Source: a virus. Taken from it: a stretch of 34,378 bases of DNA. Under the pieces are notes generated by a model, which ran no database searches, was not told the origin of the DNA, and saw only the letters and a list, made by a program, of their open reading frames with translations. The position numbers and the translations under genes were made by a program. The stretch lies in the IMG/VR virus record IMGVR_UViG_3300028228_000447, positions 1 to 34,378 of that record. One strand, given 5' to 3'. Shown here in pieces: positions 1-22,421 of the stretch (the stretch's first letter is position 1; every line of letters starts with the position of its first letter).

Positions 1-1614
1 AATTATACTATTAAAAGCCCGCTTTTGAATAACGTAAAAGTAAGTCAAATGGCTTAATAATTATCTCACCCAATAAGCTCCAATAATTAATAACGGTATC
101 AACAAAATTGGCAAAAAATCCTTTAGCCATCTGAAAAAAGCCAGATATAGTTTCGCCTAAAAGCCCGAAAAAGCGCCCTCTTGAGATGCCTATGTAACCA
201 ATTAATCCACCCTAATGCGCCAATAATTAATGATATAGGCCCCAGCGCTGCTGACAAAGCAAGCCCAAAACGTGAAGTAGCGAAAGCAGCTATTGATGCA
301 GCAATAGCTTGTGCATTGAAAGCGATGGCAACAAAAGCCAATTCCCAAAGATACGCCCGTTAAAATTGGAATTATTGTACTAGCATTATCTGCTAATGTT
401 ATAAAAAATTCCATTGAACGAACAAGAAACGGCTCCATTTTTAAAAATGATTTTACTAAAAGTCCGTCTATTGTTTCAGACATCCTAGCTTGTGCGTTAG
501 TAAAGGTTTTTGAATTTATAATAGCTTGTTCAAGCGCTGTTTTCGTTCCCGTTACCCGCTCAGTCATTATTGCGATTTGCTCTGAATTTTGAGCTAAGGC
601 CGACGCTACTACTATCGCTCCCTCTCCGAAAATCTTATTCATTTGTTGCGTGTCGTCCATAATCGGCTCTAGCAATGCCATTGTTGCTGCTAACCCTTGC
701 GTTTTCAAAGTTGCTGGAGTTATACCAAGTTCAGCTAATTCAGCGCTTCCTGCTTGCAATCTTAAAAGTACATTCCTAAGGCCAGTCCCTGCTTCAGCGC
801 CTTTTATCACCTGCTGCGATAAGACTTCTAACGTACCAACTGTATCTTCTAAAGACAGCCCCGATATACTTGCAATGCTTCCCACATTTTTTAAAGACTC
901 GCCTAAGTCGCCAACAAAAGCTGCTCCAAATTTTGAACCAGCTGCTAAAATATTTACTACGTCACTAGCTTGGCTTGCTTCTAGTCCAAATTGATTAATC
1001 GCCCCAGCTACGGTATTAGCTGCCGTTGCTAAGTCTACGCCACTTGCTTGAGCTAATTGAACAGTAGCTTTTCCTAACATTTCTAGCCCTGCAACCCCAC
1101 CAATTACAGAAACATCAATATTTGATGCTAGTAACTTATAAGCTTCAATTTGGTCAGATATAGCAACGCCCGTTCTCGCTGCTTCGCTAATTGCCGTATC
1201 GCCTAAGCGGTCTAAATCTTCGCCAGCTATTCCCGTTATTGCGCTTAACTCAGCTAAATTTGCTTGATATTCTGAGCCTATTTCAATAGCGCTACCAATG
1301 CTAGCTATAACAGCGTCTAAAGCTCTTACTGCATATTCACTTATAATATTAGCAAAAGCGAAACCCTTCGCTCCAATTCCCTCAAAAGAACCGCCAAGCT
1401 CATCATTTGCTGTTGTGGCTCTTTTTGCATCTTTTATATACTTGCCGTTTTCATTTCTTAATCTGCCTTGTGCATCACGATAATTTCCCGTCGATTTATC
1501 AACGTCTTTAATGCTATCGTCAAGTTTTTCGATTTGATCATCTAGCCCTTTAACGCCTTTAATAGCGCCACTTGCGTCTAGTTCAATGTCAAATTTTACG
1601 GTTTTAGTAGCCAT
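1..1614 (-). CDS. tail tape measure protein, N-terminal part (continues at the other end of the window)
   Basis: N-terminal portion of the tape-measure protein, which sets tail length and occupies the tail tube. The first ~60 residues are charged and helical. From about residue 95 the protein follows the TP901-type core: a residue stretch starting IGSEYQANLAELSAITG, then repeated Ala/Gly-rich helices. Hydrophobic segments follow near residue 430. The frame is lost near base 330 (the peptide turns into a Cys-rich artefact) and resumes as AFVAIAFNAQAIAASIAAF. It slips again near base 150 and reaches the terminal overlap as MAKGFFANFVDTVINYW. Joined with 33141-34291 the protein would be about 900 residues, normal for a phage of this size. 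The start ATG at 1614 overlaps the preceding stop as TAATG, so the genes are probably translationally coupled. Confidence 0.9.
45..132. repeat. terminal redundancy, left copy
   Basis: Bases 45-132 match 34292-34378 throughout except for one A in a homopolymer (six A here, five there). The tape-measure reading frame crosses this block, so the two copies mark the point where the circle was cut or the linear permuted molecule ends. Bases 1-44 also align with 34247-34291, but less well: many differences fall in third codon positions. Confidence 0.93.
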
Positions 1615-1896
1615 TATCCACGAATTATATTTTTCAAGTATAAGTTAGCAATTTCTACGCATGTTGCTTCATTTAATAACATTCTATAATCAATTAAAAT
1701 CTTTCGAAGCAAGCAAAGCTAATCTATCAAAATTTTCTAAATGATTTAAAGCGTTATTTTTAAAATCGTCTAGTTCTTGCTTGTACCAATAAAAATCATC
1801 CTTTTCTTTCGGATCGGGTGGATCAGGCGCATTTTCTAAATAAGCTAAAATAGAAAGGGCTTCGGTTAAATCCCTTTCCGCTTCATAAAAAAAGTT
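1614..1896 (-). CDS. tail assembly chaperone, downstream frame (probable T-like extension)
   Basis: An open frame between the upstream chaperone frame and the tape-measure start has no good start codon of its own. It reads YEAERDLTEALSILAYLENA, then an acidic linker (PDPPDPKEKDD) and helices. A further one-base slip near 1700 carries it into IDYRMLLNEATCVEIANLYL and a stop overlapping the tape-measure ATG. The arrangement matches the G/G-T chaperone pair found just upstream of tape-measure genes, where a ribosomal frameshift makes the longer product. The junction is a T7 run (1887-1893), so a sequencing slip is equally possible. I see no recognisable domain; the assignment rests on position. 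Confidence 0.6.
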
Positions 1897-2224
1897 GTAG
1901 CCCAGCGTTTACTTCCCCTTCATCCATAAAATCAAAATCGGAAACATCTTCACGCTTTAACTCAAAAAGAATTAATGAAAGCTCTTCTAAACATTCAAAT
2001 TCTGTGTATAAAATATCTAGCTCGTTAGCTCCATCTTGTAGTTTAATTCCACCCATTGCTGCGTACTCCACTCTTTGCTTAATCGGTACGCCTTCGCTAT
2101 GTGCTAAAATCGTAGCTAACATTCGCACATTTCTACGAATAGGCTTCACTATTTGCATCATAGATTTGTCGCTAAATGGCTTAAAATCTTTTCTTTTCGC
2201 TAGTGCTTGAATCTGTTCTAACAT
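1883..2224 (-). CDS. tail assembly chaperone (G-like), upstream frame
   Basis: A 113-residue helical protein immediately upstream of the tape-measure gene, the place normally held by the tail assembly chaperone. It has a basic N-terminus (LAKRKDFKPFSDKSMMQIVKPI) and an acidic C-terminal third (FELKREDVSDFDFMDEGEV). The frame ends directly after the CTTTTTTTATGA run. Moving +1 (equivalently -2) at that run opens the downstream frame. No family motif is evident and the call is by gene order. Confidence 0.6.
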   Translation of the reverse strand: MLEQIQALAKRKDFKPFSDKSMMQIVKPIRRNVRMLATILAHSEGVPIKQRVEYAAMGGIKLQDGANELDILYTEFECLEELSLILFELKREDVSDFDFMDEGEVNAGLQLFL

Positions 2225-2229
2225 ATTTG

Positions 2230-2670
2230 TTACCTATATTTTAACCAATCTGGATAGTTAGTGAGCCTAGTTACGGCTCTCATTTTTATTGTCTGCTCAG
2301 CTTTGAATAAGCCCCTAGTAGTTTTTAGCATTGTGCTGCTACCGTTTGCCGTTTTTACAGCGTATTTTATTGCAGTTTGATTTTCGTAATCAGGGTAGAA
2401 ATAAATAGTTGCAATCCCCTTCAAAGCGTTCATTATATCAATGCGGTCTGTGTTAGCTTCTCCCAAAACTTGCTCTTTAAAGTATTGTGTACTAATTTCA
2501 AAGAACAGCCACACGCCAATCACATCGACCCCATATTCCCCGTTTGCCGTTTCAAACGTTTGGGAATCTTCTTTGACTGTGACAATTAGCTCAGGAACTT
2601 TGAATACTCGTACAGAGCTGCCAAATTCCCAAGCTACTTGCCGAGCTGCTATTTGATTTACTAAGCTCAT
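2230..2670 (-). CDS. putative tail completion/terminator-type protein
   Basis: A 146-residue protein between the tail-tube-like genes and the chaperone. Tail terminator or tube-initiation proteins are common at this point, but I do not recognise a family. It is a mixed alpha/beta sequence beginning SLVNQIAARQVAWEFGSSVR and ending TRLTNYPDWLKYR, with no signal peptide or membrane segment. Its ATG lies directly after the stop of the upstream gene, in keeping with co-translation in the late operon. Confidence 0.5.
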   Translation of the reverse strand: MSLVNQIAARQVAWEFGSSVRVFKVPELIVTVKEDSQTFETANGEYGVDVIGVWLFFEISTQYFKEQVLGEANTDRIDIMNALKGIATIYFYPDYENQTAIKYAVKTANGSSTMLKTTRGLFKAEQTIKMRAVTRLTNYPDWLKYR

Positions 2671-3380
2671 TTAATAGCTCATGAAAGAACTGCCGTTACT
2701 AAGCGCTCCATTTGTCGATACTACGGGAAATTCTGCGGTTGCCGTTGATATATTAAAAAGCACATTATAGACAGTCGCCTCGATTAAGTCTGTTACAGTC
2801 AATATTCCAGTCGCTCCAATGCTTATTGTAGCAGTCGAAACTTGTGTTCCTGCGAAGTTATTCAATGTAATAACGTAATTTCCACCAGTACTAGTTGCGT
2901 CAGCCGATAACGTTAAATTTGTAGTTGATACGGGAAATTGAAAAGTGCCTGAATCCACATCGCCTAGAAAAGCCATTAAATTCTGATTAGCATAAATAGC
3001 AGGCGTAGCGCCAACAAATACCATCGTAACCGTAAAAAAGTTTAAGCCCGTTCTTTTATCCGCTCTCAAACTTTTTTGCACCGAAATCGGAACGCTTTCA
3101 TACCATTGAATGTTTGTCGCTCCAGCTGCTACGGCTCGTACTTCCGTGCCATCTTCTTCCCACTCTTTCAATGTTGCTATTCCATCATCATCAAAAAAGA
3201 TAAGTTTAGCGTCACCGTTTCGCCACCAAATACGGTAGACTGTGTGCTATCATTTGTGATTTGCTCAAATGTTAGCGTACTATTTTCTACACTAATATCC
3301 CCAACTTGAACTGTTACTCCGTCAGCAGGATTGTAAAAAGACGCTTGATAAATTCCAGAAAAAACATTGTTTCCCATCAT
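2671..3380 (-). CDS. tail tube-like protein, longer paralogue with extra C-terminal domain (one frame slip)
   Basis: About 236 residues once a one-base slip in the T6 run near 3190 is repaired (LNLSFFDDDGIATLKEWEEDG). It is clearly related to its upstream neighbour at 3436-3831: both share an ITNDSTQSTV(F/Y)GGET stretch in the first half and a LRADKRTGLN / LQADKRTGLN stretch later. The last ~90 residues are unique, Thr/Ser/Gly-rich and beta-like (TNLTLSADATSTGGNYVITL), resembling an immunoglobulin-like domain decorating a tube protein. Tube function is inferred from position before the chaperone and tape-measure genes. Confidence 0.65.
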
Positions 3381-3435
3381 TAACTCACTAAATTTTTAAA
3401 AGTAATAGAGGTAGCAAAAAAACTACCTCTATAAA

Positions 3436-3831
3436 TTAAGCGCTTGTAAGCGTAGCCGCATCTGTCGAGAACGTGCCCATTAACCGCCAAGTATTTAAAC
3501 CCGTGCGCTTGTCCGCTTGCAGAACTTTTTGCACTTGAATAGGATGCCCTTCGGTGCTTGTTTCTGTTGAATCGTCTACAAAAGTAAACTCAATAAACTG
3601 CTTAGTATTTGCCCTCATGATTGTATCTAGTGCAGCATATCCCGCAAAGTCATAGAAGCCAATGTTGAAAGCTAATGTTTCGCCACCATAAACAGTCGAT
3701 TGCGTGCTGTCGTTTGTTATGACAGTCGGCTCAATCGTGCTATCTGGTGTCATTTCGCCTGCAATTGAAGTGCCTACACTAGACGTAGTTCCGTAACTAA
3801 TTGATTTTAAACCGCTAAATTTATTAGCCAT
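3436..3831 (-). CDS. tail tube-like protein, shorter paralogue
   Basis: 131 residues, intact. It begins MANKFSGLKSISYGTT and holds the shared blocks VITNDSTQSTVYGGETLAF and VLQADKRTGLNTWRLMGTF. It sits between a small connector-like gene and its longer paralogue. A major tail tube protein is expected here and either copy could fill that role. The upstream gene ends GGCAATTAA just before this ATG. Function is inferred from position and compact beta-rich composition. Confidence 0.65.
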   Translation of the reverse strand: MANKFSGLKSISYGTTSSVGTSIAGEMTPDSTIEPTVITNDSTQSTVYGGETLAFNIGFYDFAGYAALDTIMRANTKQFIEFTFVDDSTETSTEGHPIQVQKVLQADKRTGLNTWRLMGTFSTDAATLTSA

Positions 3832-3832
3832 T

Positions 3833-4111
3833 TTAATTGCCTCCGCTTGAAGCGTTTTTTGTTAATTTAATTGTAGGCTTTTCGCCCTGAAGTAATTGCT
3901 CAACTATATCGCCCCGAACATACAACGTATTACTTATTTCTAAGCTCATATCCGTCATTTGTACGTCAGCCTCAAAAGTTGCGCCCCACTTTAAAAAAAG
4001 TTTGTCATCTCCGATTTTAATGCTAAGACCCTCGGGAGGTTGACCCTGCCCGAAAGTTTTAACAAAAACGGGAGTCTGTACTTTGTATCTATTACCCGTT
4101 ACAACTAACAT
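3833..4111 (-). CDS. small conserved-looking structural-region protein
   Basis: A 92-residue protein directly downstream of the major capsid gene. The sequence (LVVTGNRYKVQTPVFVKTFG; SLEISNTLYVRGDIVEQLL) is beta-rich and soluble. I do not recognise a family. The location between capsid and tail tube suggests a head-tail joining or accessory head protein, but this is inference only. Confidence 0.5.
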   Translation of the reverse strand: MLVVTGNRYKVQTPVFVKTFGQGQPPEGLSIKIGDDKLFLKWGATFEADVQMTDMSLEISNTLYVRGDIVEQLLQGEKPTIKLTKNASSGGN

Positions 4112-4113
4112 GA

Positions 4114-5082
4114 TTAAGTCAGTACGTTAAATAAGACTTGACCAGCACTTGCAGCCGTTAGCTTAACTTCGAAATATGCAGAAGCCCGCATTTCGTAAGA
4201 TTTATTTTCTGTGTTGAAACGCTCTTCAACACTCATGAACGGACTGTTTTGCGTTCCAAAATAAAACGTCTGAGCTAAGTTCATTTTATCACGAACTTGC
4301 AAGCCATTGCGATAAAACACTAGTACGCTATCGCCTGTGAATAAATCGCCCCAAACATCCGCAACACCAGCATTTGCTGAGTTAGCTAACTCGCCAAACA
4401 CTATAATTTCCTCAACGCCAAGCAAGGCTGCCAAAGTAGTTTTGGTTAAGCTTTGAGAAGATGTGTATTTAATTCTATCGTAAACACTAGATAAAGCGTT
4501 TGTTGTGATAGCATCAAATACAATTTGTGGCATAGCAATAACATTAGCTGCGTAACCGCAATTGATTCTAACACGCTCTTTTGCAGCAGCGATATTAGCT
4601 TCAATCGTGTTTGATGCAGCATTCCATTTAGTAGCAGGTACATTCACATTTGCAGCACCGTAAATAGCATTGAAACCACTTTCAGTAGCTGCCCAAGTTG
4701 CGTCACGAACGGCTTTAGCGTGTGCGTTACGCACTTCGATAAGTGATTCTAAACCTGCATTAGCTTTTTCGCCAAATAAGTCATTAGCGCCGTAACCGTA
4801 AACAAATTCCTCTGGAACTGGCTTAATTATACCGTAATCGCTCATCACATACGGCTTCATTTCGCCCTTTGATGGCTCCATGTATTTGTAAGATTCGCCT
4901 GGCGCTCTTTTAGTGTCAGCGGCTCCAAGTTTCTGTCTATCTCTTTCGAAATAAACGCCTTTATAATTTAGTTGACGCAAAACTGGAGCAACGCCAACAG
5001 CGCCTCCGAAAGTGCCAACGCCAGCTTTAATACCGTAATCAGTAAGAGATGGGCTGTAAGAGAATTGTGCTATATTAGGCAT
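4114..5082 (-). CDS. major capsid protein
   Basis: An intact 322-residue protein in the capsid slot, after protease, scaffold and decoration genes. The N-terminus is flexible (MPNIAQFSYSPSLTDYGIKAG). The central part has the helix-rich pattern of HK97-fold shells (GLESLIEVRNAHAKAVRDATW; MPQIVFDAITTNALSSVYDRI). The C-terminal half contains a segment naming an inserted property of the particle (VFYRNGLQVRDKMNLAQTFYFG), typical of capsid proteins that end with a beta-rich A-domain. The minus-strand leader AAAGGAAAACAAAATG gives a Shine-Dalgarno-like site. It is the most even, error-free long frame in the head cluster. Confidence 0.85.
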   Translation of the reverse strand: MPNIAQFSYSPSLTDYGIKAGVGTFGGAVGVAPVLRQLNYKGVYFERDRQKLGAADTKRAPGESYKYMEPSKGEMKPYVMSDYGIIKPVPEEFVYGYGANDLFGEKANAGLESLIEVRNAHAKAVRDATWAATESGFNAIYGAANVNVPATKWNAASNTIEANIAAAKERVRINCGYAANVIAMPQIVFDAITTNALSSVYDRIKYTSSQSLTKTTLAALLGVEEIIVFGELANSANAGVADVWGDLFTGDSVLVFYRNGLQVRDKMNLAQTFYFGTQNSPFMSVEERFNTENKSYEMRASAYFEVKLTAASAGQVLFNVLT

Positions 5083-5094
5083 TTTGTTTTCCTT

Positions 5095-5477
5095 TTATGC
5101 TAGTGTGTATGGTGCGGTTAGCTTTGCAAGTATTAGTTCACCGTTGGCTGTTGGTGCAACAAGTGCTTGCGCAATTGATACTTCTCCAGTCGTAGCTAGT
5201 ACGAATCCGCCTGCTGTGTCAACCATAAGTAATGAACCCACTACTATACTTGTTGCTGTTGTAATCTTAACGGGAACAAACCCGTCTGTGATCACATCTA
5301 CATCTTCGCCACTAGCTGCATTTACAACCACAACGCCATGCGCTAAATTACCAGCAGCTGCTGGATAAGATGCGGTGCGAGCTGTAAAATCAATCACTAC
5401 ACCACGCCCAACGGTTAAAGCTTCAGTAGCTTTAGCGCCCCATGATGCTATTTTTTTATGCTTAATTCAAAAGCCAT
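5095..5477 (-). CDS. capsid decoration protein (DUF2190-like), one frame slip
   Basis: About 127 residues. The ATG at 5477 follows AGGAAAATAAA. The first codons (MAFELSIKKIASWGAKATEA) are separated from the rest by one missing A in the A-run near 5451-5457. The body is Ala/Val/Gly-rich and beta-like (GNLAHGVVVVNAASGEDVDV; LLMVDTAGGFVLATTG), the pattern of small trimeric decoration proteins that stabilise the shell. It lies between scaffold and major capsid, the usual place for such proteins. Confidence 0.7.
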
Positions 5478-5478
5478 T

Positions 5479-6041
5479 TTATTTTCCTAGTTTAATTTGC
5501 TCAGATGCTTCTGCGTAAGCGTTAGCATAGTCTGAAATTTTTAATTTTTTGTTTCCATAATTTCGTTAGTTCTAGCAACGATTTTATGTTCAAGATCAAT
5601 AGAGCTTTCGGTGCCAAGATTAGCACGCCCAAATTCTTTTGTATTAGCAGACTGATCAGACTTGATACCATAAGCGTTTACATACAGCTTCATATCTTCC
5701 ATCCGATCCGCTTTAGATTCTGCGTCAGAATCGGCTAAATAGGACTTGACACGCTTTTCTAACTTAGCTTTTACTTCGTCAGATACTTGTTTGCCCGATT
5801 TGCTAATTAATTCAGCTAGAACGGTTTCAGCTTCGTGCGATTGCACTTGTGCTTTCAACTCGTTTACTTCTATTTTATTAGCTTCAATCTTAGCATTTAG
5901 CCCCGTAATTAATTCGCTTTTAGCTTGAATGTCATCAGTTAGCGCAGTTACTTTTGTTGTAAATGCTTTCACACTTTCAATTATAGTATCTTCGCTTGCC
6001 GTCGCATCCATCGCTAAAACCGCTATGAGTTCTTTTTTCAT
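5479..6041 (-). CDS. scaffold-like protein, one frame slip
   Basis: About 187 residues after repairing one missing A near 5549. The central part is a long charged coiled coil (LNAKIEANKIEVNELKAQVQ) and the C-terminus is short and basic/acidic (SEQIKLGK). Between a ClpP-type protease and the decoration/capsid genes, this is the classical place for the internal scaffold that the protease degrades. Its start overlaps the protease stop in ATGA, implying coupled synthesis. Family assignment is by composition and position. Confidence 0.65.
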
Positions 6042-6643
6042 CTCATTTTTTGGTTTTGTTGTTTTTGATTAAAAAGCGCTTGAACTTCTTTAGGCGCTTT
6101 GGCTGTGATAAAATCAGTAGTAAAATCCATTGACGCAGCAACAGCTATTTCATTTGTTGCCCCTACAATTTCGTCTACAAAACCCATCTCTAGCGCTTGC
6201 TCAGCGCTTAAATAAGTTTCTTCATCCATCATTTTTTGCATTTGCGCAACGGGCAAGCCAGTCTTTGCAGAGTAAGCATTTGCATATGTTGCCGCTAAAC
6301 TTTTTAAGTAGTCTATTTTCTTTTCAGCTTCTACATAATCGAATCGCCCAGCCGATATAGCAGGGTTGTGAATCATTATGAATGAGCCTTTTTCTATTGT
6401 GATCTTGTCAAACGCAAGCATTATACGAGTAGCTGCACTTGCTGCAATTCCGATAATTTTAATACTTGTCTGAGGTTCATAAGCTTTTATTAAAGAATGA
6501 ATTGCCTCGCCTACATAGTATGAACCACCAGGACTAAAAATAGTCGCTTCAATCGGCTCATTCCCTGCTTGCATTAATGCAAAATTTATACTTTCAGCGT
6601 CGATTGGGTATTCTCCAACTAGGCCAAATAAATCTAATTTCAT
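6038..6643 (-). CDS. ClpP-like prohead maturation protease
   Basis: A 201-residue serine protease of the ClpP/crotonase fold used by phages to process the prohead. Features in order: strand-turn with the Gly-rich SPGGSYYVGEAI (residues ~37-48), nucleophile region IIGIAASAATRIMLAF with the candidate serine in ASA (~68), catalytic His in FIMIHNPAISAG (~91), and the C-terminal QALEMGFVDEIVG. Typical length for a phage ClpP-like protease. The C-terminal ~20 residues are Gln/Lys-rich and may be cut off. Start and stop overlap both neighbours by four bases. Confidence 0.88.
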   Translation of the reverse strand: MKLDLFGLVGEYPIDAESINFALMQAGNEPIEATIFSPGGSYYVGEAIHSLIKAYEPQTSIKIIGIAASAATRIMLAFDKITIEKGSFIMIHNPAISAGRFDYVEAEKKIDYLKSLAATYANAYSAKTGLPVAQMQKMMDEETYLSAEQALEMGFVDEIVGATNEIAVAASMDFTTDFITAKAPKEVQALFNQKQQNQKMR

Positions 6644-7119
6644 ACTGTATCCATATTTAGAGTTACACCTTCAACGGCAAAAGTTGCCATTCGTACATCA
6701 ATTGAATCAGAGACAAATAAATCTCTTAAAGAACGGAACACTAAAGGTTGAGATGGTTGACCCGTTAAGTCTAATTCAAAATTATTTAACCGATTCATTG
6801 CAAGTCCTACTAATATGTTTACTGATCTTTTTTCGCCTTTGATTTGCTTCATTTTACCACCATCATTAGCAGCAAAAATAATCTGAACATCAAAAGTTCC
6901 ATTTGTTAATGTGCCATTCGTGTTAAGATTATCAGCTTGCACCCCCGTTGAGCGCAAAAAAACGGCTGGTTTGCTCTTAACTTTACTTAAAATAAAATGT
7001 AATAAATCATCTGGGCTGGTTGTTTCAAAGTACCTATTAACCTCAAATACGCTGTTCGTAGCGCTTAAAACCGTTTCGATTTGGTCTTCAATTTCAGTAT
7101 CAAAATCGACCCAACTCAT
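6640..7119 (-). CDS. Mu gp37-like head-tail protein (DUF1834-like)
   Basis: 159 residues, the gene directly after the gp36-like protein, as in Mu. The sequence starts with an acidic helix (MSWVDFDTEIEDQIETVLSA) and continues with a compact alpha/beta fold (DVQIIFAANDGGKMKQIKGE). Such proteins are thought to act in head-tail completion. The match is by gene order and general pattern rather than a diagnostic motif. Four-base overlaps with both neighbours. Confidence 0.6.
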   Translation of the reverse strand: MSWVDFDTEIEDQIETVLSATNSVFEVNRYFETTSPDDLLHFILSKVKSKPAVFLRSTGVQADNLNTNGTLTNGTFDVQIIFAANDGGKMKQIKGEKRSVNILVGLAMNRLNNFELDLTGQPSQPLVFRSLRDLFVSDSIDVRMATFAVEGVTLNMDTV

Positions 7120-7565
7120 ATAAAATTCGATTGACTAAATTGACTGTTAGCTTGCGGAGAAACGCTTACTTGCGCTCCGCCCTGCGTTGAAACAGATCCA
7201 TCGGCTAATAACAAATTTATATTAGCCGAACCCTTTCCAATGTCTTTAAACCACCTTAGCACATTATCGTATTGAGCTTGGATTCCTGCATCAATTTGGT
7301 CACGTCTGCCATAAAGAAAGTATTTCACGATAACAAAAATAGCTTTCTTAATGCTATTAGGGCTTGTTCCGTCAGGCGCTTGAAGCGGAATAATGTACCG
7401 ACCCGATAAATAGCTTTCTACTGTTTCCTCTGCACTTTCTCCGAACTGCATTAATATGCTGTCTACACTCGTTTCGGAATTTGGAGCGTCGTCAGTCATA
7501 GACCCCTGCAATGATTCAGGAATCTCATTTACTAGCTCAGCAAGTGTAATGTATCGAAGGGCCAT
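7116..7565 (-). CDS. Mu gp36-like protein (DUF1320)
   Basis: 149 residues matching the DUF1320/gp36 head-tail connector pattern: an N-terminal segment RYITLAELVNEIPES, then an acidic helix ending EETVESYLSGRYIIPLQ, an AIFVIVKYFLYGRR helix, and a C-terminal loop with KDIGKGSANINLLLADG. This Arg-Tyr...YL-GRY...LY-RR layout is characteristic. It is the first minus-strand gene after the reversed portal block, and its promoter must lie in the 97-base divergent gap or further upstream. Confidence 0.8.
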   Translation of the reverse strand: MALRYITLAELVNEIPESLQGSMTDDAPNSETSVDSILMQFGESAEETVESYLSGRYIIPLQAPDGTSPNSIKKAIFVIVKYFLYGRRDQIDAGIQAQYDNVLRWFKDIGKGSANINLLLADGSVSTQGGAQVSVSPQANSQFSQSNFI

Positions 7566-7573
7566 AAAAATAA

Positions 7574-7589
7574 GTTAGAGCTGTCTAAC
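7574..7589. promoter_or_regulatory. inverted repeat in divergent gp36/portal gap
   Basis: GTTAGA-gctg-TCTAAC is a perfect 6-base inverted repeat with a 4-base spacer, eight bases before the gp36-like start on the minus strand and followed by a third half-site GTTAGG at 7597-7602. It could be an operator or an mRNA hairpin controlling the two divergent genes. Only symmetry and location support this. Confidence 0.4.
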
Positions 7590-7617
7590 ATTTAAAGTTA
7601 GGCTAATATAAACAAAT

Positions 7618-7625
7618 TATTTTTG
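7618..7625 (+). promoter_or_regulatory. possible Bacteroidota-type -7 box (TAnnTTTG) upstream of portal
   Basis: TATTTTTG fits the TAnnTTTG -7 element described for Bacteroidota, 37 bases before the portal ATG. The expected TTTG -33 element is only TTTA at 7591-7594, so the match is partial. AT-rich DNA makes chance matches likely. Confidence 0.25.
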
Positions 7626-7662
7626 TAAATTGCAACACATTAAAAAACATTTATTTATTCTT

Positions 7663-8941
7663 ATGGCCTCACTAGATAGCAATTTGTACTCTGAGTTTTT
7701 AGAAACTAAGCAAATGTCGAGGTACGTTACCGTATTTACGACGTTGAATATGCAGTTTGTTCAGCAAATAATTGGCTCAGCTGAGTCGGGTAAAATAGGC
7801 GACCTTTACCAATTATATGAGTTTATAGAAGCAAGTGATGCCAGACTGAAAGGCATGATTAACAATAGACGTAAAGCCGTTTCAAAATTTAAGTACTTAA
7901 TAAGCGCAGGCAATAGAGATAATCCAAAATCAATTGAGGCTGCCGACTTTGTTGCTGGTAACTTAGAAGCGCTAAAATGGAAAGCGTATATAGCGCAATT
8001 AATGGACGGCAGAGCTTACGGGGTACAAATGCACCAAAAAGTATGGAAAGCAAAAGAGGGTAAACTATGCATAGATCAGCTAGTCCCGGTAGATAAAAGC
8101 AAATACGAGCAAAACAACCAATACTTAATTGAAGAAAAAACGGCTTTTAGGTCGAATTACTTATTTCAGAATATTTGACTGGCTCACGTGTTATATCAGC
8201 TCAAAGCTTAGTTGATGAAAGTGTACTAACGCTGGCCGTTGACAAAGAAATAAAAGGAAAGTACGACTTACAAGGATTCATGCGGGGTATTGCAAGATGG
8301 TACTTAATAAAGCTATTCGCTGTAATGAATTGGAGCCAGTACGCAGAAAAATACGGCCATCCAGTAGTGACAGCTACTGTCAGCGAAGATATGCTAAAAA
8401 AGATAGGTCTTTAATTACGCAGCTGCTAAGCTCGGTTGGCTCTAATCGCTACGGGCTAATGCTGCAAGGAATGGACTATAAAATTCATAACGGTTCAAAT
8501 TCAGCTAATGTTGAAGTTTATGAAAAGCTAATTGCCCTCGCAAATACAGAGATGGCTATCGGTATTTTAGGGCAAAATCTTACAACAGACGTAAGCGGAG
8601 GTTCTTTAGCTGCATCTAAAACGCATCTTGAAGTATTAAGCAATATTATCGAAGATGATGCAGAGTGGATAGACGAGATTATCAACGATCAAATAGTTAA
8701 TTCTTTAGTTCGTGTTAACTTCCCCGATTTAGCTTATGAAGACTATCCAAATTATCAAACGCATATTCCCGAAGAAATTGATATTCAAAAAATCTCAAAC
8801 GGTTTACTACAAGCTTCTCGCATCGTCCCTATTCCCGTTTCACATATTTACAAAAAACTAGGCATTCCTGAACCGCAAGATAACGAAGAAACTATAGGCG
8901 GTAACGGTTCATCTTTATTAGATTCCATTGTCAATTCGTAG
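7663..8941 (+). CDS. portal protein, Mu gp29-like (DUF935), two frame slips, reversed strand
   Basis: Portal of the Mu gp29/DUF935 family, the dodecameric ring through which DNA enters the capsid. About 426 residues after joining three frames with slips near 8165 and 8400. Landmarks: IGDLYQLYEFIEASDARLKG and INNRRKAVSKFKYLISAG near the N-terminus, LMDGRAYGVQMHQKVW, GFMRGIARWYLIKLFAVMNW in the middle, WSQYAEKYGHPVVTATVSED, and MAIGILGQNLTTDVSGGSLA followed by AASKTHLEVLSNI. All are hallmarks of DUF935 portals. I chose ATG 7663 (MASLDSNLYSEF); 7630 is an alternative. The gene opposes the direction of all other head genes except its partner gpG, and begins in a divergent gap. Confidence 0.93.
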
Positions 8942-9500
8942 ACAAATAATCCCCGATTTAGAAAATGCGTTTTCAAATGCAAAGCTAGGCGTTTCGGCTG
9001 CCCGTGTAGGTACTGCTGCGCAATCGGCTATTTTAGATCGCACGGAAAAAGGTAAATTTCTTGGTGGTACGCTATCAAATAACGGCTATTCGACTAATCC
9101 TATATCAGCCTGGAAAATAGGAGATGTTACGTATTTAAAAAACGGCTCGATTAATGTTAAAGCTGCTCGGATCGGGCCGGTTAAGTTTGCATCTAATGAT
9201 ATCCGATTTGGTAAAAAAGGCGCTGTGATTTTAGGAGGCTACAAAGCATTTAGAAAAGCATCTGGAAGGGAATCTAATAAAGTTACTTTGCTTTTGTCTG
9301 GAGCCATGTTAAATAGTCTAAATTTTGCTTACACAATCGCTCGTAACGTGGCGAAAATAGTTATAGCTGTTACTCCAGATCAAATGAATAAAGCGTTTTT
9401 TACAAATAAAAATCGTGAATGGTTAGGGCTGAGTAACCCCGAACTTGATAAAATTGAACGTGATTTATCCAACGATATCGAGCGTAGTTTGAGGGATTAG
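8928..9500 (+). CDS. gpG-like virion morphogenesis protein
   Basis: 190 residues, overlapping the portal end by 14 bases with a probable TTG start (SIRRQIIPDLENAF). The gene follows portal as gpG-type (phage virion morphogenesis/tail completion) proteins do in Mu-like clusters. Features include RVGTAAQSAILDRTEKGKFL, a Gly-rich loop, TLLLSGAMLNSLNFAYTIAR, and an acidic tail with EWLGLSNPELDKIERDL, matching the W-G(L)-S motif of this family. It is co-oriented with the portal and ends facing four small minus-strand genes. Confidence 0.78.
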   Translation: MSIRRQIIPDLENAFSNAKLGVSAARVGTAAQSAILDRTEKGKFLGGTLSNNGYSTNPISAWKIGDVTYLKNGSINVKAARIGPVKFASNDIRFGKKGAVILGGYKAFRKASGRESNKVTLLLSGAMLNSLNFAYTIARNVAKIVIAVTPDQMNKAFFTNKNREWLGLSNPELDKIERDLSNDIERSLRD

Positions 9501-9525
9501 CGTTGGTTTGTGCGCTTTGGGTGAG

Positions 9526-9699
9526 TTATTCCACATATACAGGCGTTAAGTATATTCTTTCACAGTCGTTTTTACTTATACCACATTCCCAAGCACCACA
9601 AACTTCATACCCATCATTATCAAACTTTGCTACCATTAGTAGTTCATTGTTTGCTGATACCCATAAATGCTGACCTATTTTTACATCTTCAAATTTCAT
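9526..9699 (-). CDS. small unknown protein, 57 residues
   Basis: An open frame of 57 residues, starting MKFEDVKIGQHLWVSANNEL and ending YLTPVYVE, with two clustered cysteines around GAWECG. Composition is protein-like and soluble. It converges on gpG with 25 bases between the stops, so it closes the accessory minus-strand insert. Function unknown. Confidence 0.6.
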   Translation of the reverse strand: MKFEDVKIGQHLWVSANNELLMVAKFDNDGYEVCGAWECGISKNDCERIYLTPVYVE

Positions 9700-9773
9700 A
9701 ATTATCTAATTTAAAAGAGCATAACACGGTATATAAAAAATTTCGCTTTGCTCCACATTTCATATACTATTCG

Positions 9774-10151
9774 TTATGTGCCAATTAAAGGGCACTGACA
9801 CACACGCATTAATTCAATTAATTCTGATTTCTCATTAAGTGTTGTTAAGTGATTTTCGGTAGAGTTTATATAAACTTGCCAATCTCCGTAATGATGATTT
9901 TCTAATATTGAAATTTCTGAAAAGTGATCAACTTGCTGTTCTAGTGTCATATCTCCAACAACTTGTGGACAAGGAGAAATTAATATGTCGCAGTAGTAGC
10001 CATCAATTTTGAAATAAACTCTAAATTGTTTCCAACGATTATCAAACCATCTTTCTGCTTTAGAAAATCCTTTTGAAATAAGAAAATCGGCACATAACAA
10101 GCGGTTAGCGTCATTGCCTTTTTCGTGGTTAATTGTAATTTTGTTTTCCAT
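9774..10151 (-). CDS. unknown protein, 125 residues
   Basis: An uninterrupted 125-residue soluble protein, mildly acidic with many aromatic residues (SKAERWFDNRWKQFRVYFKI). It contains a CDILISPCPQV segment with two cysteines. I do not recognise the family. It is part of a run of short genes between gpF and gpG, and a TTTTGTGTTT-complement leader element sits 25 bases upstream. Confidence 0.6.
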   Translation of the reverse strand: MENKITINHEKGNDANRLLCADFLISKGFSKAERWFDNRWKQFRVYFKIDGYYCDILISPCPQVVGDMTLEQQVDHFSEISILENHHYGDWQVYINSTENHLTTLNEKSELIELMRVCQCPLIGT

Positions 10152-10158
10152 ATCAAAT

Positions 10159-10289
10159 TTATTTTAAAGTTAAAGTTTTGTGTTTCAAAGTCTGCAACGA
10201 ACGCCAATCGCCCATCCGTTGCGCATCCCACATGTCGTGGTCATGATCATAGCCACAATCACAAATTCTTTTGATTTCATTTCACTCAT
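10159..10289 (-). CDS. small Cys/His-rich protein, 43 residues (one frame slip)
   Basis: Repairing one missing base in the T4 run at 10269-10272 gives a 43-residue frame beginning MSEMKSKRICDCGYDHDHDM and continuing WDAQRMGDWRSLQ. Its ATG overlaps the upstream stop as ATGA, which strongly supports the repair. CxC followed by HDHD could bind a metal ion. Function unknown. Without the repair both frames run into short, less protein-like sequences. Confidence 0.55.
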
Positions 10290-10561
10290 AGCCCGACCCG
10301 ATATTCAGCCGAAAGACTCCAGTAGACTTCTGATGTATATTCAGCATCATATTCGACTAAAGGCAGTACCTTTTTAAGTTCTAGCTCAACGTATTGAGCG
10401 AGTTCTATTTCCTGCCCACATGGCCACAATTCATAGCTGTGTTGGTATTCAGTTCCCAACCCATGGTCGAAGCTTTCATCCACTTTAACCGTTTTTGTGC
10501 CGGTATGTTCGTTTACTTTCTGCGCTATGTTATTTAGCGCCTCATATATTTGGTCAGTCAT
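10286..10561 (-). CDS. unknown acidic protein
   Basis: About 91 residues from ATG 10561 (MTDQIYEALNNIAQKVNEHT). Acidic and helical, with LWPCGQEIELAQYVELELKK in the centre. I prefer this start because the longer frame reaches back into the terminator hairpin. MEKI at 10573 is an alternative. It is coupled by ATGA to the next small gene. Function unknown. Confidence 0.55.
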   Translation of the reverse strand: MTDQIYEALNNIAQKVNEHTGTKTVKVDESFDHGLGTEYQHSYELWPCGQEIELAQYVELELKKVLPLVEYDAEYTSEVYWSLSAEYRVGL

Positions 10562-10577
10562 TATCTTTTCCATTTTG

Positions 10578-10621
10578 TGTTTAAAAAAAAGGGCGCTACT
10601 CAATGAACTAAGCAACGCCCC
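10578..10621 (-). terminator. rho-independent terminator after the 50-residue gene
   Basis: On the minus strand GGGCGTTGCT pairs with AGTAGCGCCC (10 pairs, two of them G-T) around a 10-base loop, followed by eight T. It lies 10 bases after the stop of the gene at 10631-10783. Confidence 0.85.
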
Positions 10622-10630
10622 AACCCTAGA

Positions 10631-10783
10631 CTAAACTAATTTAATTAAGCTTAAATTTTGTTGTATAGAAACAAGTAAAGCAGCGCCAGTCATTACACAA
10701 GGCTTTGACGCAAAGAATAAACCATCATCATACAATCCGTCTTTGTTTATTTCTGTGATTGGGTTTGGGCTAGTGTGATACAT
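10631..10783 (-). CDS. small unknown protein on its own transcription unit, 50 residues
   Basis: 50 codons from an ATG 40 bases downstream of a near-consensus promoter, with the stop 10 bases before a strong terminator. The peptide starts MYHTSPNPITEINKDGLYDD, then GLFFASKPCVMTGAALLVS. The first part recalls the N-termini of larger phage and bacterial proteins with an xHTSPxxITEI start, so the gene may be a truncated or minimal relative; this is recollection, not a search. Independent promoter and terminator mark it as a moron-like insert. Confidence 0.6.
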   Translation of the reverse strand: MYHTSPNPITEINKDGLYDDGLFFASKPCVMTGAALLVSIQQNLSLIKLV

Positions 10784-10822
10784 TGTATTTGCGGTTGTGT
10801 TTGTGTTTCTTAATTTTCTTAA

Positions 10823-10851
10823 ATATACACCATTAAAAACTACTTGTCAAG
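10823..10851 (-). promoter_or_regulatory. sigma-70-type promoter
   Basis: Minus strand TTGACA (10846-10851), 17 bases, TATATT (10823-10828): perfect -35 and near-perfect -10 with ideal spacing. The predicted transcript starts near 10816 and carries an AAACACAAAACACAAC leader before the ATG at 10783. Confidence 0.85.
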
Positions 10852-10864
10852 TGTAAAAGTGAAA

Positions 10865-11380
10865 CTATTTTAAATTATTTTCACTCACATCATTCAGTAA
10901 AGCAAATTCACCGAAATAATGCAATGCTGCTTTATTGTACGCTATCGCTGCATCTCGCTCATTTGCGAACGTGCCTAAGTATACATCTTTTTGATTAAAT
11001 ACTATTCGTGATCTAAAAGACCACCCCAGATTCCTACTGAATTTGTAAACCCCTTTGTACTTGCTAGACCCACCTTTTCGATTTTTTTGATTTCTCATGT
11101 TTTCTACATGGGTGCATAGCCTTAGATTGCTTTTTCTATTGTCCAAGGTATCATGATTTATGTGGTCAACATGAACTTTGCTATCTTCTACGCCCATAAT
11201 AAATCGGTGCATTGATATGGTTTTTCTTATTTGCTTACCGTCTTTCATGCCAATATGTTGGATTCGCCTCGCATATCCAGTTCCAGCCTTATTATATTGC
11301 CACTTAAATTCATTTACCCGATCGAAGTCGTCAGCATCTACTATTGCTGATTTGCCTTGTGTTAGTTCAATTTTATTCAT
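10865..11380 (-). CDS. HNH endonuclease with AP2 DNA-binding domain
   Basis: 171 residues, a free-standing homing-type endonuclease. The N-terminal part (IVDADDFDRVNEFKWQYNKA) leads to the HNH core: HRFIMGVEDSKVHVDHINHD and TLDNRKSNLRLCTHVENMRN, with the paired His and Asn of the metal site. The C-terminal ~60 residues form an AP2/ERF-like fold: SSKYKGVYKF, YLGTFANERDAAIAYNKAAL. Such genes cut alleles that lack them and spread by repair. It sits between gpF and the accessory genes, next to the point where morphogenesis genes change strand. A TATACT -10-like box at 11416-11421 and an AACACAAAAC leader precede it. Confidence 0.92.
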   Translation of the reverse strand: MNKIELTQGKSAIVDADDFDRVNEFKWQYNKAGTGYARRIQHIGMKDGKQIRKTISMHRFIMGVEDSKVHVDHINHDTLDNRKSNLRLCTHVENMRNQKNRKGGSSKYKGVYKFSRNLGWSFRSRIVFNQKDVYLGTFANERDAAIAYNKAALHYFGEFALLNDVSENNLK

Positions 11381-11415
11381 TTATTCATTTTCGGTTAGTT
11401 TGTTTTGTGTTGTCA

Positions 11416-11421
11416 AGTATA
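11416..11421 (-). promoter_or_regulatory. possible -10 box for the HNH gene
   Basis: Minus strand TATACT followed by TGACAACACAAAACAAAC places a start site about 7 bases downstream, at the same leader motif that follows the two strong promoters. No good -35 is present, so this is weak. Confidence 0.3.
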
Positions 11422-11448
11422 ATACTAAATTAATCGCAATAAAAAAAC

Positions 11449-12267
11449 TTATTCCCAATCTTTATCAAACGGCACTAACTGATGCCTGCAATTGTACCCA
11501 CCCCCGTACACCGTTGGCGGTTGTGGCCCCGTATCATTTGTGATCATTTCCCAGTACTCCCAACTTCGAATATCGTTAACGTGTTGAGCGCAAAAAGATC
11601 GTGTAAGATTATCCATTGGGCCATAATATTTAGCCGTCTCAATTCCGCTTTTTTTACCCTGCTCTTTTCGAATTGTGCGATCTATTGCGAATAAAGACGT
11701 ATTAGCTACCGTACCAGCGTATTTGGGTAGTATGCCACTTTTGCTAATCAAGTCGCTTTTAAGCTGGGCGAAACTTACGGATTCATTATCAAATACGGTG
11801 TTTCGATAATTTAACAATGTGCGAGATAATTCAATTTCTTGTGCTTCCGTGCCTCTTCTTACAGAGTCCATCACATAGCCTAGTTGCTCTAAAACGGCTG
11901 GTATGACTCGTGCATCGTCGCCAATTTTTAAGTTATCTAAGTCTAATTTATTCCATACTACATCTGCCGTATTGATTCTTTTATTAATAATGTCAATCAA
12001 GTCTGGAGTAAGCTTAGTAATGCCAGCTTGATCAAAGTAAAACGGTAAGTTATTTACCATGTCATCCATCCGATTCGCATTAGCAAAAACTGGTTTAATC
12101 CGCTTACCATCTGAACTCATTTGCATCTGTGATAGCTCAGCTATTAGCGACCGACTAAATGCCCGTTTAAATTTGTGATTGCGCTCTAGTATCTGAGCAA
12201 ACCAGCGATCCATATTTTTTGAATCGGCTGCTAAGGCTTTATCTAACCTCTCTGTAAATTCACTCAT
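11449..12267 (-). CDS. gpF-like minor head protein (phage head morphogenesis)
   Basis: 272 residues of the Mu gpF / SPP1 gp7 minor capsid family, which binds the inside of the portal vertex. The helical N-terminal two-thirds (SEFTERLDKALAADSKNMDR) leads to the family's C-terminal module: YYGPMDNLTRSFCAQHVNDI, then WEYWEMITNDTG and the closing YGGGYNCRHQLVPFDKDWE. The conserved Cys and His residues are present. The gene overlaps terminase by ATGA. In Mu-like clusters the portal lies between these genes; here it is missing from that position and found reversed 2.5 kb away. Confidence 0.88.
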   Translation of the reverse strand: MSEFTERLDKALAADSKNMDRWFAQILERNHKFKRAFSRSLIAELSQMQMSSDGKRIKPVFANANRMDDMVNNLPFYFDQAGITKLTPDLIDIINKRINTADVVWNKLDLDNLKIGDDARVIPAVLEQLGYVMDSVRRGTEAQEIELSRTLLNYRNTVFDNESVSFAQLKSDLISKSGILPKYAGTVANTSLFAIDRTIRKEQGKKSGIETAKYYGPMDNLTRSFCAQHVNDIRSWEYWEMITNDTGPQPPTVYGGGYNCRHQLVPFDKDWE

Positions 12268-13487
12268 ATCATTACGCCTTGCTCATATATTTGGTCTGTT
12301 AATGATTCGAGACCTGAAGTTGTTATTTCTGGCCTGAATAGCTGCGTGTTTGTAGCATATCGAATTGAATCAATGCCATGATTCCATTTATCAATCGGCT
12401 TATTAAGTGCCTGACCATTCCGATCTTTCGCCCACGTGTACGAGCTAAACTCTTCGACTAATTCTTTAGAGCTTCTTAGTACATTTATTTTATAGCGTTT
12501 GAGCTGGTCAATTCCATTCATTACGCTATCTTTACCCTTTTCAGCACCTTCTAAAAAGAACCCGAAGCGATTCAATTCTTCTATACTCTTTGGCTCAGCT
12601 GAGTCTGCTATAATCTTTTGCGATCCATTTATATTCAATTCCCTTAGCTTCTTTGCTATGTCGCTATTCGTTAAGCCCGTTTCATATATTAATTGCCTAG
12701 TGTATAATTCGCCACTAAATAAAGCGGTTTCAGTTAGTACGGTTGGATCATTTGTATAGCCAAAATCTAAACCAAAAACTTTCCATTTAGGATACTTCGG
12801 AAATTCGTCGACCTCTTCAAATTCAGGAAATATTAAGCCTTCTAAGCGCCCTAGCTCGCCTAATCCGTACACTTTCCATCTATATTCGTTTGCCGTCTTT
12901 CTTGCTATATTTTGCGGTGTTGGCTCGTAGCCTAGGATTGACTTTAAGATAGTCGGATGAATAAAATCGTTATCTCTGTAAGTCGAGTTAAACCAATCCA
13001 CATCATCTCGCCCCTTTAGCATATCATGCGCCCAAAAGCTAGCGGATGGATTAAAATCAATAATACTTTTAACATTTGTTCTTATTCTTAATTGCTCAAA
13101 TACATTCTTAGATATGCCGTTGGCTTCGTTTAAAAAACAGTAATCTCTTTTACCATTCTTTGCATCCTGCTCATCTGCATAAGAAGTAAATTCAATAATG
13201 CTGCCCGTTTTAAAATAGTATATGTAGTCGGATTTGTTAAATCGGTCTATCTGTTGACTAAAAAAAGACGTTGAATCAACTACATTTTTTGCATCTCTAA
13301 TAGCGCCTTTTTTTAAATTAGGTAAATCTGAGCCGACGACGGTAATAACTTTGTTTCGCTGCGTTGAAGCAATAGTAAATAGCCCTTGTATGATGCTATA
13401 CGTTTTTGAGCTACTGGAACCACCTTCATGAACTACAATAGATTTGAGGCTATCTAATGTAGCTTTATATAGCCAGTTAACATCCAT
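12264..13487 (-). CDS. terL: terminase large subunit
   Basis: 407 residues, intact. ATPase domain: Walker A HEGGSSSSKTYSII near residue 20, adenine/translocation region, Walker B RDYCFLNEANG near residue 115 with the catalytic Glu. Nuclease domain: FGLDFGYTNDPT near residue 230, IIADSAEPKSIEEL near 285, and the last acidic site in WNHGIDSIRYATNT near 375. These are the RNase H-fold metal ligands of packaging terminases. It translocates DNA into the prohead and cuts concatemers. Coupled to the small subunit by TAATG and to gpF by ATGA. Confidence 0.95.
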   Translation of the reverse strand: MDVNWLYKATLDSLKSIVVHEGGSSSSKTYSIIQGLFTIASTQRNKVITVVGSDLPNLKKGAIRDAKNVVDSTSFFSQQIDRFNKSDYIYYFKTGSIIEFTSYADEQDAKNGKRDYCFLNEANGISKNVFEQLRIRTNVKSIIDFNPSASFWAHDMLKGRDDVDWFNSTYRDNDFIHPTILKSILGYEPTPQNIARKTANEYRWKVYGLGELGRLEGLIFPEFEEVDEFPKYPKWKVFGLDFGYTNDPTVLTETALFSGELYTRQLIYETGLTNSDIAKKLRELNINGSQKIIADSAEPKSIEELNRFGFFLEGAEKGKDSVMNGIDQLKRYKINVLRSSKELVEEFSSYTWAKDRNGQALNKPIDKWNHGIDSIRYATNTQLFRPEITTSGLESLTDQIYEQGVMI

Positions 13488-13930
13488 TATTTTTTAATTT
13501 GTGGGGCATTTACAACTGTTACAATAAATTCAGTTTCAATATCCGTTTTAATCTCGCTACGTTCAGGCGCATTTAGCCCTAGAAGCTTGTTAATTTCTTT
13601 CTGCACTTCTCTACACTCCTTTAAGTCAGGTCGTGGACTAGCGGTCATATTTAAGCGATACAATTCAGTAAGTCTGGCATAAGCTAATAGCGTTTCGTTT
13701 CTTTTTGATTCGTCTGAGATGTAAGCCAGCGTGCTGAAGATTTTTTCAATTTCTTCGTTGACTTTTGGAAGTGGGATATTCCAGCTTTCCGAAACTTCAT
13801 TGATAACATCGTCTGCAAAGTCTTTAGTTTGCGATAATTCAGACATGATCCGGGCTTTGATAGTACTTCTATCGTCTCCGTTCATTAGCATTTCTGCTAT
13901 TTCTCTTTGTTTATTGCTGCTTAGTGTCAT
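13487..13930 (-). CDS. probable terminase small subunit
   Basis: 147 residues immediately before the large subunit. Composition is helical. The N-terminal region (SNKQREIAEMLMNGDDRSTI) resembles a helix-turn-helix DNA-recognition segment, followed by coiled-coil stretches (KVNEEIEKIFSTLAYISDE) expected for an oligomerising subunit and a beta-like tail (TEFIVTVVNAPQIKK). No unique family motif is evident. The call rests on size, order and composition. Confidence 0.6.
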   Translation of the reverse strand: MTLSSNKQREIAEMLMNGDDRSTIKARIMSELSQTKDFADDVINEVSESWNIPLPKVNEEIEKIFSTLAYISDESKRNETLLAYARLTELYRLNMTASPRPDLKECREVQKEINKLLGLNAPERSEIKTDIETEFIVTVVNAPQIKK

Positions 13931-14322
13931 TTTAAAGTGTCCTTTATTTGATACAAATTACAAAAAAAGTGTCTAAAATGGTGGAATTCGGAAATAATCG
14001 TGTAAGTAGCGCTTGTTTCGGTGAGCTTCATCTCATGTAGAATTTGGCTTTTGCTTTGCTTATCTGTCCCCACTTTGAATTCTACTGCGCCATATTTGCC
14101 ATCTAAGCTCACTAAACTCATATCAGCTACACCTTCTACCAATCCCTTAGCTTTGAGCCTGCTAAGGGCGATTTTAAGAGCTCGACGGCTTAGCATTGGA
14201 GCGTTGTTGTTATTGCTCCAAAACAGGCCTCGAAATTGTGGGTAATTGTTCCATGCCCATTGGAAGCATTTAGCTTGCAGCTGATCGTGTGATAGGCCGT
14301 CTTTATTTACGTTTTTACTCAT
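13927..14322 (-). CDS. VRR-NUC-like endonuclease
   Basis: 131 residues of PD-(D/E)xK type. A helical N-terminus with HDQLQAKCFQWAWNNYPQFR is followed by WSNNNNAP, LKAKGLVEGVADMSLVSLDG with the metal-binding Asp, and KYGAVEFKVGTDKQSKSQ with the ExK motif, then a final helix. This layout is typical of small phage VRR-NUC proteins that act in DNA processing or packaging. It is the first gene after the repeat-bearing gap and overlaps the next gene by four bases. Confidence 0.8.
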   Translation of the reverse strand: MSKNVNKDGLSHDQLQAKCFQWAWNNYPQFRGLFWSNNNNAPMLSRRALKIALSRLKAKGLVEGVADMSLVSLDGKYGAVEFKVGTDKQSKSQILHEMKLTETSATYTIISEFHHFRHFFCNLYQIKDTLK

Positions 14323-14592
14323 GTTGTTTTAGCTCGTTTAATTGGTTTGAATTGGGATGAATTAGCATTGTAACAGGTAACAGATGGGTAACAGATAAAA
14401 AAGGGCTATGTGTTACCTTCTAAGTTCTTATTTACTAACTACTTAACTACTATTAAATATAGATAACAGATAAATATAATAATAAGAGTATATAGAAATA
14501 TTATTTTATATGACATGGCTATATAAAATTTCATTTTATAAAAGTTTGCCGTTCTATGTGTTCTATCTGTTACCTTTTGCACTTTATCCCCA
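14323..14592. other. gene-free AT-rich gap with repeats (candidate replication origin)
   Basis: A 270-base AT-rich stretch between the primase-helicase gene and the late genes. It holds two exact GGTAACAGAT repeats (14376-14385, 14387-14396), a variant GATAACAGAT (14462-14471), an inverted copy ATCTGTTACC (14565-14574) and a partial inverted TGTTACC (14411-14417). A further direct copy is at 14623-14632 inside the helicase gene end. The rest is very AT-rich with several TATA-like blocks. A 31-codon hydrophobic minus-strand frame in it could be chance. Confidence 0.6.
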
Positions 14593-14632
14593 CTAAAACG
14601 GTGCGTCGTAATCACTTACAGAGGTAACAGAT
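14376..14632. repeat. GGTAACAGAT iteron-like repeats
   Basis: Exact copies on the plus strand at 14376-14385, 14387-14396 and 14623-14632, inverted at 14565-14574, and one mismatch at 14462-14471. The first two are 11 bases apart, one helical turn, as for iterons bound by an initiator. Confidence 0.7.
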
Positions 14633-16780: not shown

Positions 16781-17827
16781 AATAATTTGTAATTTTGTAT
16801 TGCTTTAAATATTTCTAATACTACTTGTGGAACTATGGCATTTCCATAGCCTTTGATTGATTCATTTCTCCACTTTGAAAAGGTAATTCCGTCCAATCTG
16901 GAGGAAAGCCCATCATTTCCGCCACAAATCGGGGGTTGAGTTGGGAAGTTGAGCCAGTCTTGTAACCTACCGTCAGCGCTATACCTGGACCCTATTCTTT
17001 TTTTGTATTGGTTGTTTAGCTTTTCTTGGCTTTTGAAAGTGTCCTTGTAATCTCTGGCTGTTTGGCGTTGGTATCATTCCCGTAAACATCGCTGCATCCA
17101 AAATGCTGTTCGGTCTGTTCTCTCCCGCTTTTCGGCTCATCATTGTTTTCGCTCCCGTTGCTTTGAGTTTCTCCACTCGTTCTGGATGGTCCCGTTGTAC
17201 GCTCGTTGGCGTTGGGAACAGCCCCGAATACTTGACTTGGCTCAGCAGACTGCCGTACATCGTGCCGTTCTTGTAACCGTTCTTCTTTGCTCTTGCTCGC
17301 ATTGCATCTGGATGTTCGTCTGTCATTACAGCTGTCGGAGTAAGCAACAAACCAGACTCTATCTCTGCGGTGGGGAGCGTTTTTGGCGCAAGCTGGAAGT
17401 ATATACGATTGTACTTCGTACCCTTCATTTTCCAAGTCAGTTTGCACCTGGTCGAAGACCAATCCCCCTGACCAATTAACAATTCCGTGAACATTTTCGC
17501 CCACGACCCAACTTGGTTTAATTCTTTAATTGCCCTAAGCATGCTCGGCCAGAGATGTCGCTCGTCATCTTTCCCAAATCTTTTACCTGCGGTTGAGTAG
17601 GGTTGGCAGGGGAATCCCCCGGTAAGAACGTCAATTTTGTTTGCATATTTAGTGAAATCGGTTTTTGTTATGTCAGTAAATTGTTCAGCTTTAGGCCAAT
17701 AATAATGCAGTATTTTTTGGCAAAATGGGTTCCATTCGCAATGAAAAAGATTATCCCAACCCATTTTCTCAGATGCTAAGTCAAAGCCACCAATCCCGCT
17801 AAATAATGAGCCATGTGTTACGTTCAT
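16777..17827 (-). CDS. C5-cytosine DNA methyltransferase (frame slips)
   Basis: About 350 residues in three frame pieces. Motif I is THGSLFSGIGGFDLASEKMG, motif IV with the catalytic Cys is TGGFPCQPYSTAGKR. After a slip near 17510 the frame continues as VVGENVHGIVNWSGGLVFDQ (motif VI, ENV) and NAPHRRDRVWFVAYSD (motif VIII). After a second slip near 17025 the target-recognition part and motif X follow: RLDGITFSKWRNESIKGYGN and AIVPQVVLEIFKAI. The protein transfers a methyl group to C5 of cytosine, probably to protect phage DNA from host restriction. Start and stop overlap both neighbours as ATGA. A second frame, +1 to the methylase, stays open over 17030-17504 and looks protein-like (see findings). 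Confidence 0.9.
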
Positions 17828-19290: not shown

Positions 19291-19312
19291 TTTTTTTGGT
19301 TTTGTGTTAGGC

Positions 19313-21689: not shown

Positions 21690-21702
21690 TTCGTCTCCTT
21701 TA

Positions 21703-22403: not shown

Positions 22404-22421
22404 GTTAGATCGGGTAGATTA

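Follow-up and report, generated by a model that had tools for sequence, protein, structure and literature searches.

We identified a G-like tail assembly chaperone gene in the window (the whole 34,378-base stretch analyzed here, an IMG/VR virus record of a metagenomic phage), and its end almost certainly carries a programmed frameshift of one direction or another. Programmed frameshifts are a familiar feature of tail chaperones. In this phage, G and GT proteins are probably made by a -1 slip on a run of eight T, of which the record lacks one; a single undercalled T would make an ordinary -1 site appear as the +1/-2 site that is read in the window. The features of the region are as follows.

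202..1614, minus strand: tape measure protein, first part (PF10145, E 2.7e-24; phrog_1533, E 5.3e-37)
1614..1695, minus strand: T frame, last part (LIDYRMLLNEATCVEIANLYLKNIIRG), in the third frame, assigned by codon usage; its stop TAA (1616-1614) overlaps the tape measure ATG
1690..1893, minus strand: T frame, first part (FFYEAERDLTEAL...DFN), without ATG and at +1/-2 relative to G as sequenced, assigned by translation and codon usage
1852..1879, minus strand: candidate stimulatory hairpin with an 8-bp stem (GGAAAGGG/CCCUUUCU), starting ~7 nt past the T run
1883..2224, minus strand: ORF of the G-like tail assembly chaperone, 113 aa as sequenced, assigned by hhalign and by its position between the tail genes and the tape measure gene
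1887..1893, minus strand: slip site, seven T as sequenced (A7 on the plus strand) and probably eight in the phage, judging by the T runs of relatives and the run-length error table
2230..2670, minus strand: tail gene p146, common to the relatives (tblastn to locus L020, 3651-4097, E 6e-6)
2671..3380, minus strand: tail gene split into 2671-3171 and 3177-3380 by a simple sequencing error, but one unbroken ORF in each of the four relatives (tblastn; for L119 through L015)

The last codons of the G ORF on the minus strand are CAA CTT TTT TTA TGA. The frame that continues after the run has no ATG, remains open to 1690 and translates as GYNFFYEAERDLTEAL...SKDFN*. G, the T frames and the tape measure gene all lie on the same strand, with tail genes on one side of G and the tape measure gene on the other. 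The startless +1/-2 frame after the T7 at 1887-1893, upstream of the tape measure gene, had been described in the initial annotation and was seen again in the ORFs and their translation. In a window this rich in AT, a run of seven T is in itself no rarity; what goes beyond chance is its position at the end of an ORF just ahead of the tape measure gene, together with the return of the arrangement in four relatives.

We further followed the coding signal across the region with a codon usage model trained on 5,058 codons of a close relative (L010). The signal stayed in the first frame to ~1903, in the +1/-2 frame to ~1695 and in the third frame to the start of the tape measure gene. Thus, by codon usage, two frame changes precede the tape measure gene, and a second one near 1695-1692 had been overlooked when a single change was claimed. 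The codon-usage shift point at 1903 lies ten bases before the T run and was rejected as the true slip point because it differs from the run by only 2.0 log2 units. A programmed change near 1695 was also rejected, since in the relatives the T frame continues unbroken in the direction of the tape measure gene; an extra base near 1695-1692, a probable sequencing error, appears to break the T frame here. In the sequence as read, the last part of T lies at -1 overall relative to the G frame, which is what one missing and one extra base between them would give. With the last part added, the T of the window has approximately the length of the T pieces in the relatives (93-102 aa).

The relatives came from a tape measure alignment scan that yielded 35 loci, three of which (L015, L020 and L021) have tail genes in common with the window; a further scan with one of the common tail genes brought in a fourth locus (L119). 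All four have the same gene order as the window. Each has a G ORF of 108-142 aa with an overlapping T frame behind it, at -1 and heading for the tape measure gene, which shows that the programmed G/GT frameshift is real and conserved. The relatives also separate a programmed shift from a sequencing error: the gene at 2671-3380 is whole in each of them, and G and T are split in each of them. Conservation of the slip site, which had been named as a check, was observed in four of four, with a T run at every G/T frame change (nine T in L020, six in L015, four in L021 and five in L119). In the G frame, the sequences at the change are GCC TTT TTT TTT ATG (L020), GAT TTT TTG (L015), GAT TTT ACG (L021) and GAT TTT TCC (L119); with only four or five T, the slip would be less ideal in L021 and L119. 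The G of the window matched a profile built from the four G proteins (hhalign probability 91.3%, E 9.5e-7, 80 columns). Its T matched the corresponding T profile weakly (E 0.016, 23 columns), and the first part of T is the counterpart of FFYETTVQLDTDAAL in L020. The bases that follow the run in L020 are ATG AAA in the G frame and TAT GAA in the T frame, and those in the window are ATG AAG and TAT GAA. With seven T, the two frames of the window are at +1/-2; only with eight do they stand at -1 as in L020.

The accuracy of the record was assessed against L010 (IMGVR_UViG_3300025438_000207), a 99% identical contig that matches window positions 4123-22981. Four blocks of >1,000 bases and >98% identity were kept for the error table, which excludes a block of 93% identity (10286-11382) as well as a divergent patch (11540-11600) with its three indels. 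The 16,685 aligned bases contained 27 single-base indels, among them 12 insertion errors of the record. None of the 39 A/T runs of six in L010 was read as seven in the window, and two of its six A/T runs of eight were. Conversely, of 13 A/T runs of seven in the window, 11 are seven and two are eight in L010, and all 136 G/C runs of three in the window agree with L010. Where this record errs in long A/T runs, it usually undercalls them. L010 ends at window position 4123, so the length of the T run comes from the window sequence alone. Five genes are broken in the window and intact in L010: primase/VapE, helicase-methylase, helicase, protease-scaffold and portal (domains were matched for the first three; the portal was named from its size and place only). 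In addition, six extra bases relative to L010 cluster at window 19467-19704.

We weighed the possible run lengths roughly. Priors were taken from the relatives with one pseudocount for each class (-1, 5/7; +1 frame, 1/7; continuous gene, 1/7), and the chance of reading seven T was set to 2/6 from eight, 11/17 from seven and ~0.03 from six (0/39 observed, with other insertion errors included). This gave ~0.7 for -1, ~0.27 for the +1 frame and ~0.01 for a continuous gene. Because the phase of L020 was matched, we consider a -1 slip with one undercalled T the probable explanation, and leave a true -2 or +1 shift a clearly smaller share of our confidence. The proposal of a frameshift in the tail assembly chaperone at the T run was thus borne out as a programmed event by all four relatives. 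The proposed +1/-2 direction was not, given that all four stand at -1 and that the phase of L020 fits eight T.

In this arrangement, most ribosomes would end at the short G, and a minority would slip back by one base on the U run near the end of G, enter the T frame and produce a GT fusion. A run of eight would read CTT TTT TTT ATG AAG, offering a perfect U UUU UUU slip, and T would then read LFF-YEAERDL. A position ~7 nt past the slip run is a usual place for a stimulator, and the candidate hairpin of the window begins there. The fold of the window hairpin had an energy of -12.9 kcal/mol (z -2.09, equalled by 3 of 200 shuffles), for a stretch picked after the hairpin had been seen. L020 lacks such a hairpin, and downstream hairpins of three relatives were no better than shuffles (z +1.03 in L020, -0.76 in L015 and -1.34 in L021); a 90-base fold of L015 reached z -4.04 with simple shuffles. 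By analogy with lambda, G and GT may bind the tape measure protein and the T part may recruit the subunit of the tail tube. PMC5009743 describes such binding to the tape measure protein for lambda gpG and gpGT, and binding of the tail tube subunit for their T part.

The main rival explanation is that seven T is exact and that the phage enters the +1 frame through a -2 slip like that of Mu or through a +1 slip (TTT to TTT before TTA TGA). Most window A/T runs of seven are indeed correct by the error table (11 of 13), and PMC5009743 describes other long-tailed phages that use -1, -2 or +1 at this place. There is also a group of five metagenome contigs from uncultured phages (L090, L093, L097, L099 and L105), with G at 3665-4162 and T at 4119-4409 in locus coordinates, in which the T frame stands at +1/-2 across AA[A/G] TTT TTT CGT. 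Most nucleotide changes in this group fall on third codon positions, in the G frame ahead of the slip and in the T frame beyond it, providing solid comparative support for access to the +1 frame. Like the window, this group has a T frame at +1/-2 and, ahead of the tape measure gene, a G with a T run at its end; it has other G and T proteins, a T run of six and a frame change conserved in five contigs. The idea of a -2 or +1 shift in the initial annotation therefore has a sequence-level example, but in another, unrelated family. Against an exact run of seven stand the relatives of the tail module, all four at -1, and the phase of L020, which fits eight T. If seven were correct, the phage would have switched from the -1 of its relatives to -2 or +1 at the same run, which we regard as unlikely. 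Were it so, a single tail module family would include both directions, as is the case for Trichomonas vaginalis viruses according to PMC5009743, and a direction that truly differs from that of the relatives would offer a direct test of a change from -1 to -2 or +1 in phages.

Much less probable are two explanations in which the ribosome does not shift. One continuous gene would result from six T in the phage, from another extra base (for example, GG read as GGG) or from two missing T. Before the run, codon usage slightly favoured GGC TAC AAC TTT TTT over GGG CTA CAA CTT TTT (-26.6 vs -28.6), and the insertion errors of the record show that extra bases do occur. However, the reading of six A/T as seven was absent from the table, the G/C runs of three agreed throughout, and the relatives are split at the corresponding place. 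An accurate read of six T, and with it one continuous gene, had been put forward as the outcome that would overturn the frameshift; the record, with no such overcalls and two of six eights undercalled, points the other way. Since undercalling rather than overcalling is typical of its long A/T runs, no explanation is less likely than this one. The accompanying warning was that T7 is exactly the kind of run miscounted in this sequence; in the long A/T runs compared with L010, the usual miscount is an undercall (eight to seven). The other explanation, that RNA polymerase rather than the ribosome slips on the T run and so gives mixed transcripts and hence both products, is very improbable as well. 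With 7-9 T, the runs of the window and L020 have a length at which such slippage may be suspected, but the arrangement is kept in L021 and L119 with only four and five T. Taken with these comparisons, the preferred reading, a -1 slip on eight T, illustrates a general approach to telling a programmed shift from a sequencing error, which is to ask whether relatives split at the same place and in which direction.

Among known systems, the window is similar to lambda G/GT in a location with tail tube genes on one side and the tape measure gene on the other, in a short G with GT made by a slip near its end, and in the -1 relation of the four relatives. It differs in slipping on U's and in the lack of a match to a named chaperone family in Pfam or PHROGs. 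The Mu tail chaperone frameshift is -2 according to PMC5009743 and PMC2628397. The likeness to Mu consists of the T frame at +1/-2 as sequenced and a Mu Gp36-like head gene in the phage; on the other side are the -1 relatives and a window chaperone without a significant Pfam or PHROGs match, with no likeness to Mu gp41/gp42 emerging from these family searches. The earlier comparison with Mu relied on Mu-like head genes (Gp36 family, PF07030), which are silent on the tail genes.

Direct relatives of the window G were not found in viral contigs, genome contigs or phage records (tblastn, E<=10), nor were those of the window T in viral contigs, and the exact DNA pattern across the site, with the run length left free, gave nothing in viral contigs. 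A major capsid protein query found only the 99% identical contig, and window 1-6000 showed no DNA similarity to phage records. Family searches gave no Pfam and no PHROGs family for the window G at E<=1 and no significant match in either for the window T. In PHROGs at E<=0.1, the G proteins of L020 and L021 had no match and that of L015 a single uninformative one. These chaperone ORFs show low sequence similarity between phages, as described in PMC5009743, and the lack of a family match was therefore not treated as defining of function. The predicted structure of the window G with its four relatives had a mean pLDDT of 57.7, too low for a fold search. For the genes tried, the tail module of the five phages had no match among 50,697 phage records; a tail module family of this kind now joins the phages with a frameshifted tail chaperone.

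In a wider survey, 123 loci were reduced to 83 distinct tape measure sequences by removing 10 without a tape measure match and then sequence repeats; L119, whose tape measure gene had no match, lies outside the 83. A mechanical filter detected a G/T pair in 46 of the 83 (36 with only -1, nine with only +1 and one with both), some of which are surely chance pairs. The other loci had no pair (33), too little upstream sequence (2) or no start (2). A tape measure relative, L003, has a -1 G/T change at CATAAAAAAGC (4169-4483 and following).

The record probably represents a phage genome that is nearly whole and circularly permuted. A tape-measure-like part was recognised by eye at the opposite end (33141-34320), and the tape measure gene is probably cut by the ends of the record (window 1-1614 and 33141-34378) and continues at the far end. 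The head genes include the Mu Gp36-like protein (PF07030) and a ClpP-like protease. At window 16784-17815, ~1 kb with a gene for a C5 cytosine DNA methylase (PF00145), whose ORF is apparently broken, corresponds to only 13 bases in L010, and an HNH endonuclease gene (PF13392) at 10865-11380 lies in a stretch 93% identical to L010 with flanks of ~99%. Finally, broken ORFs at window 26590-28087 contain repeats of the motifs GTLDTGYTLN and ADGKIYVGG and encode a probable tail or fibre protein.
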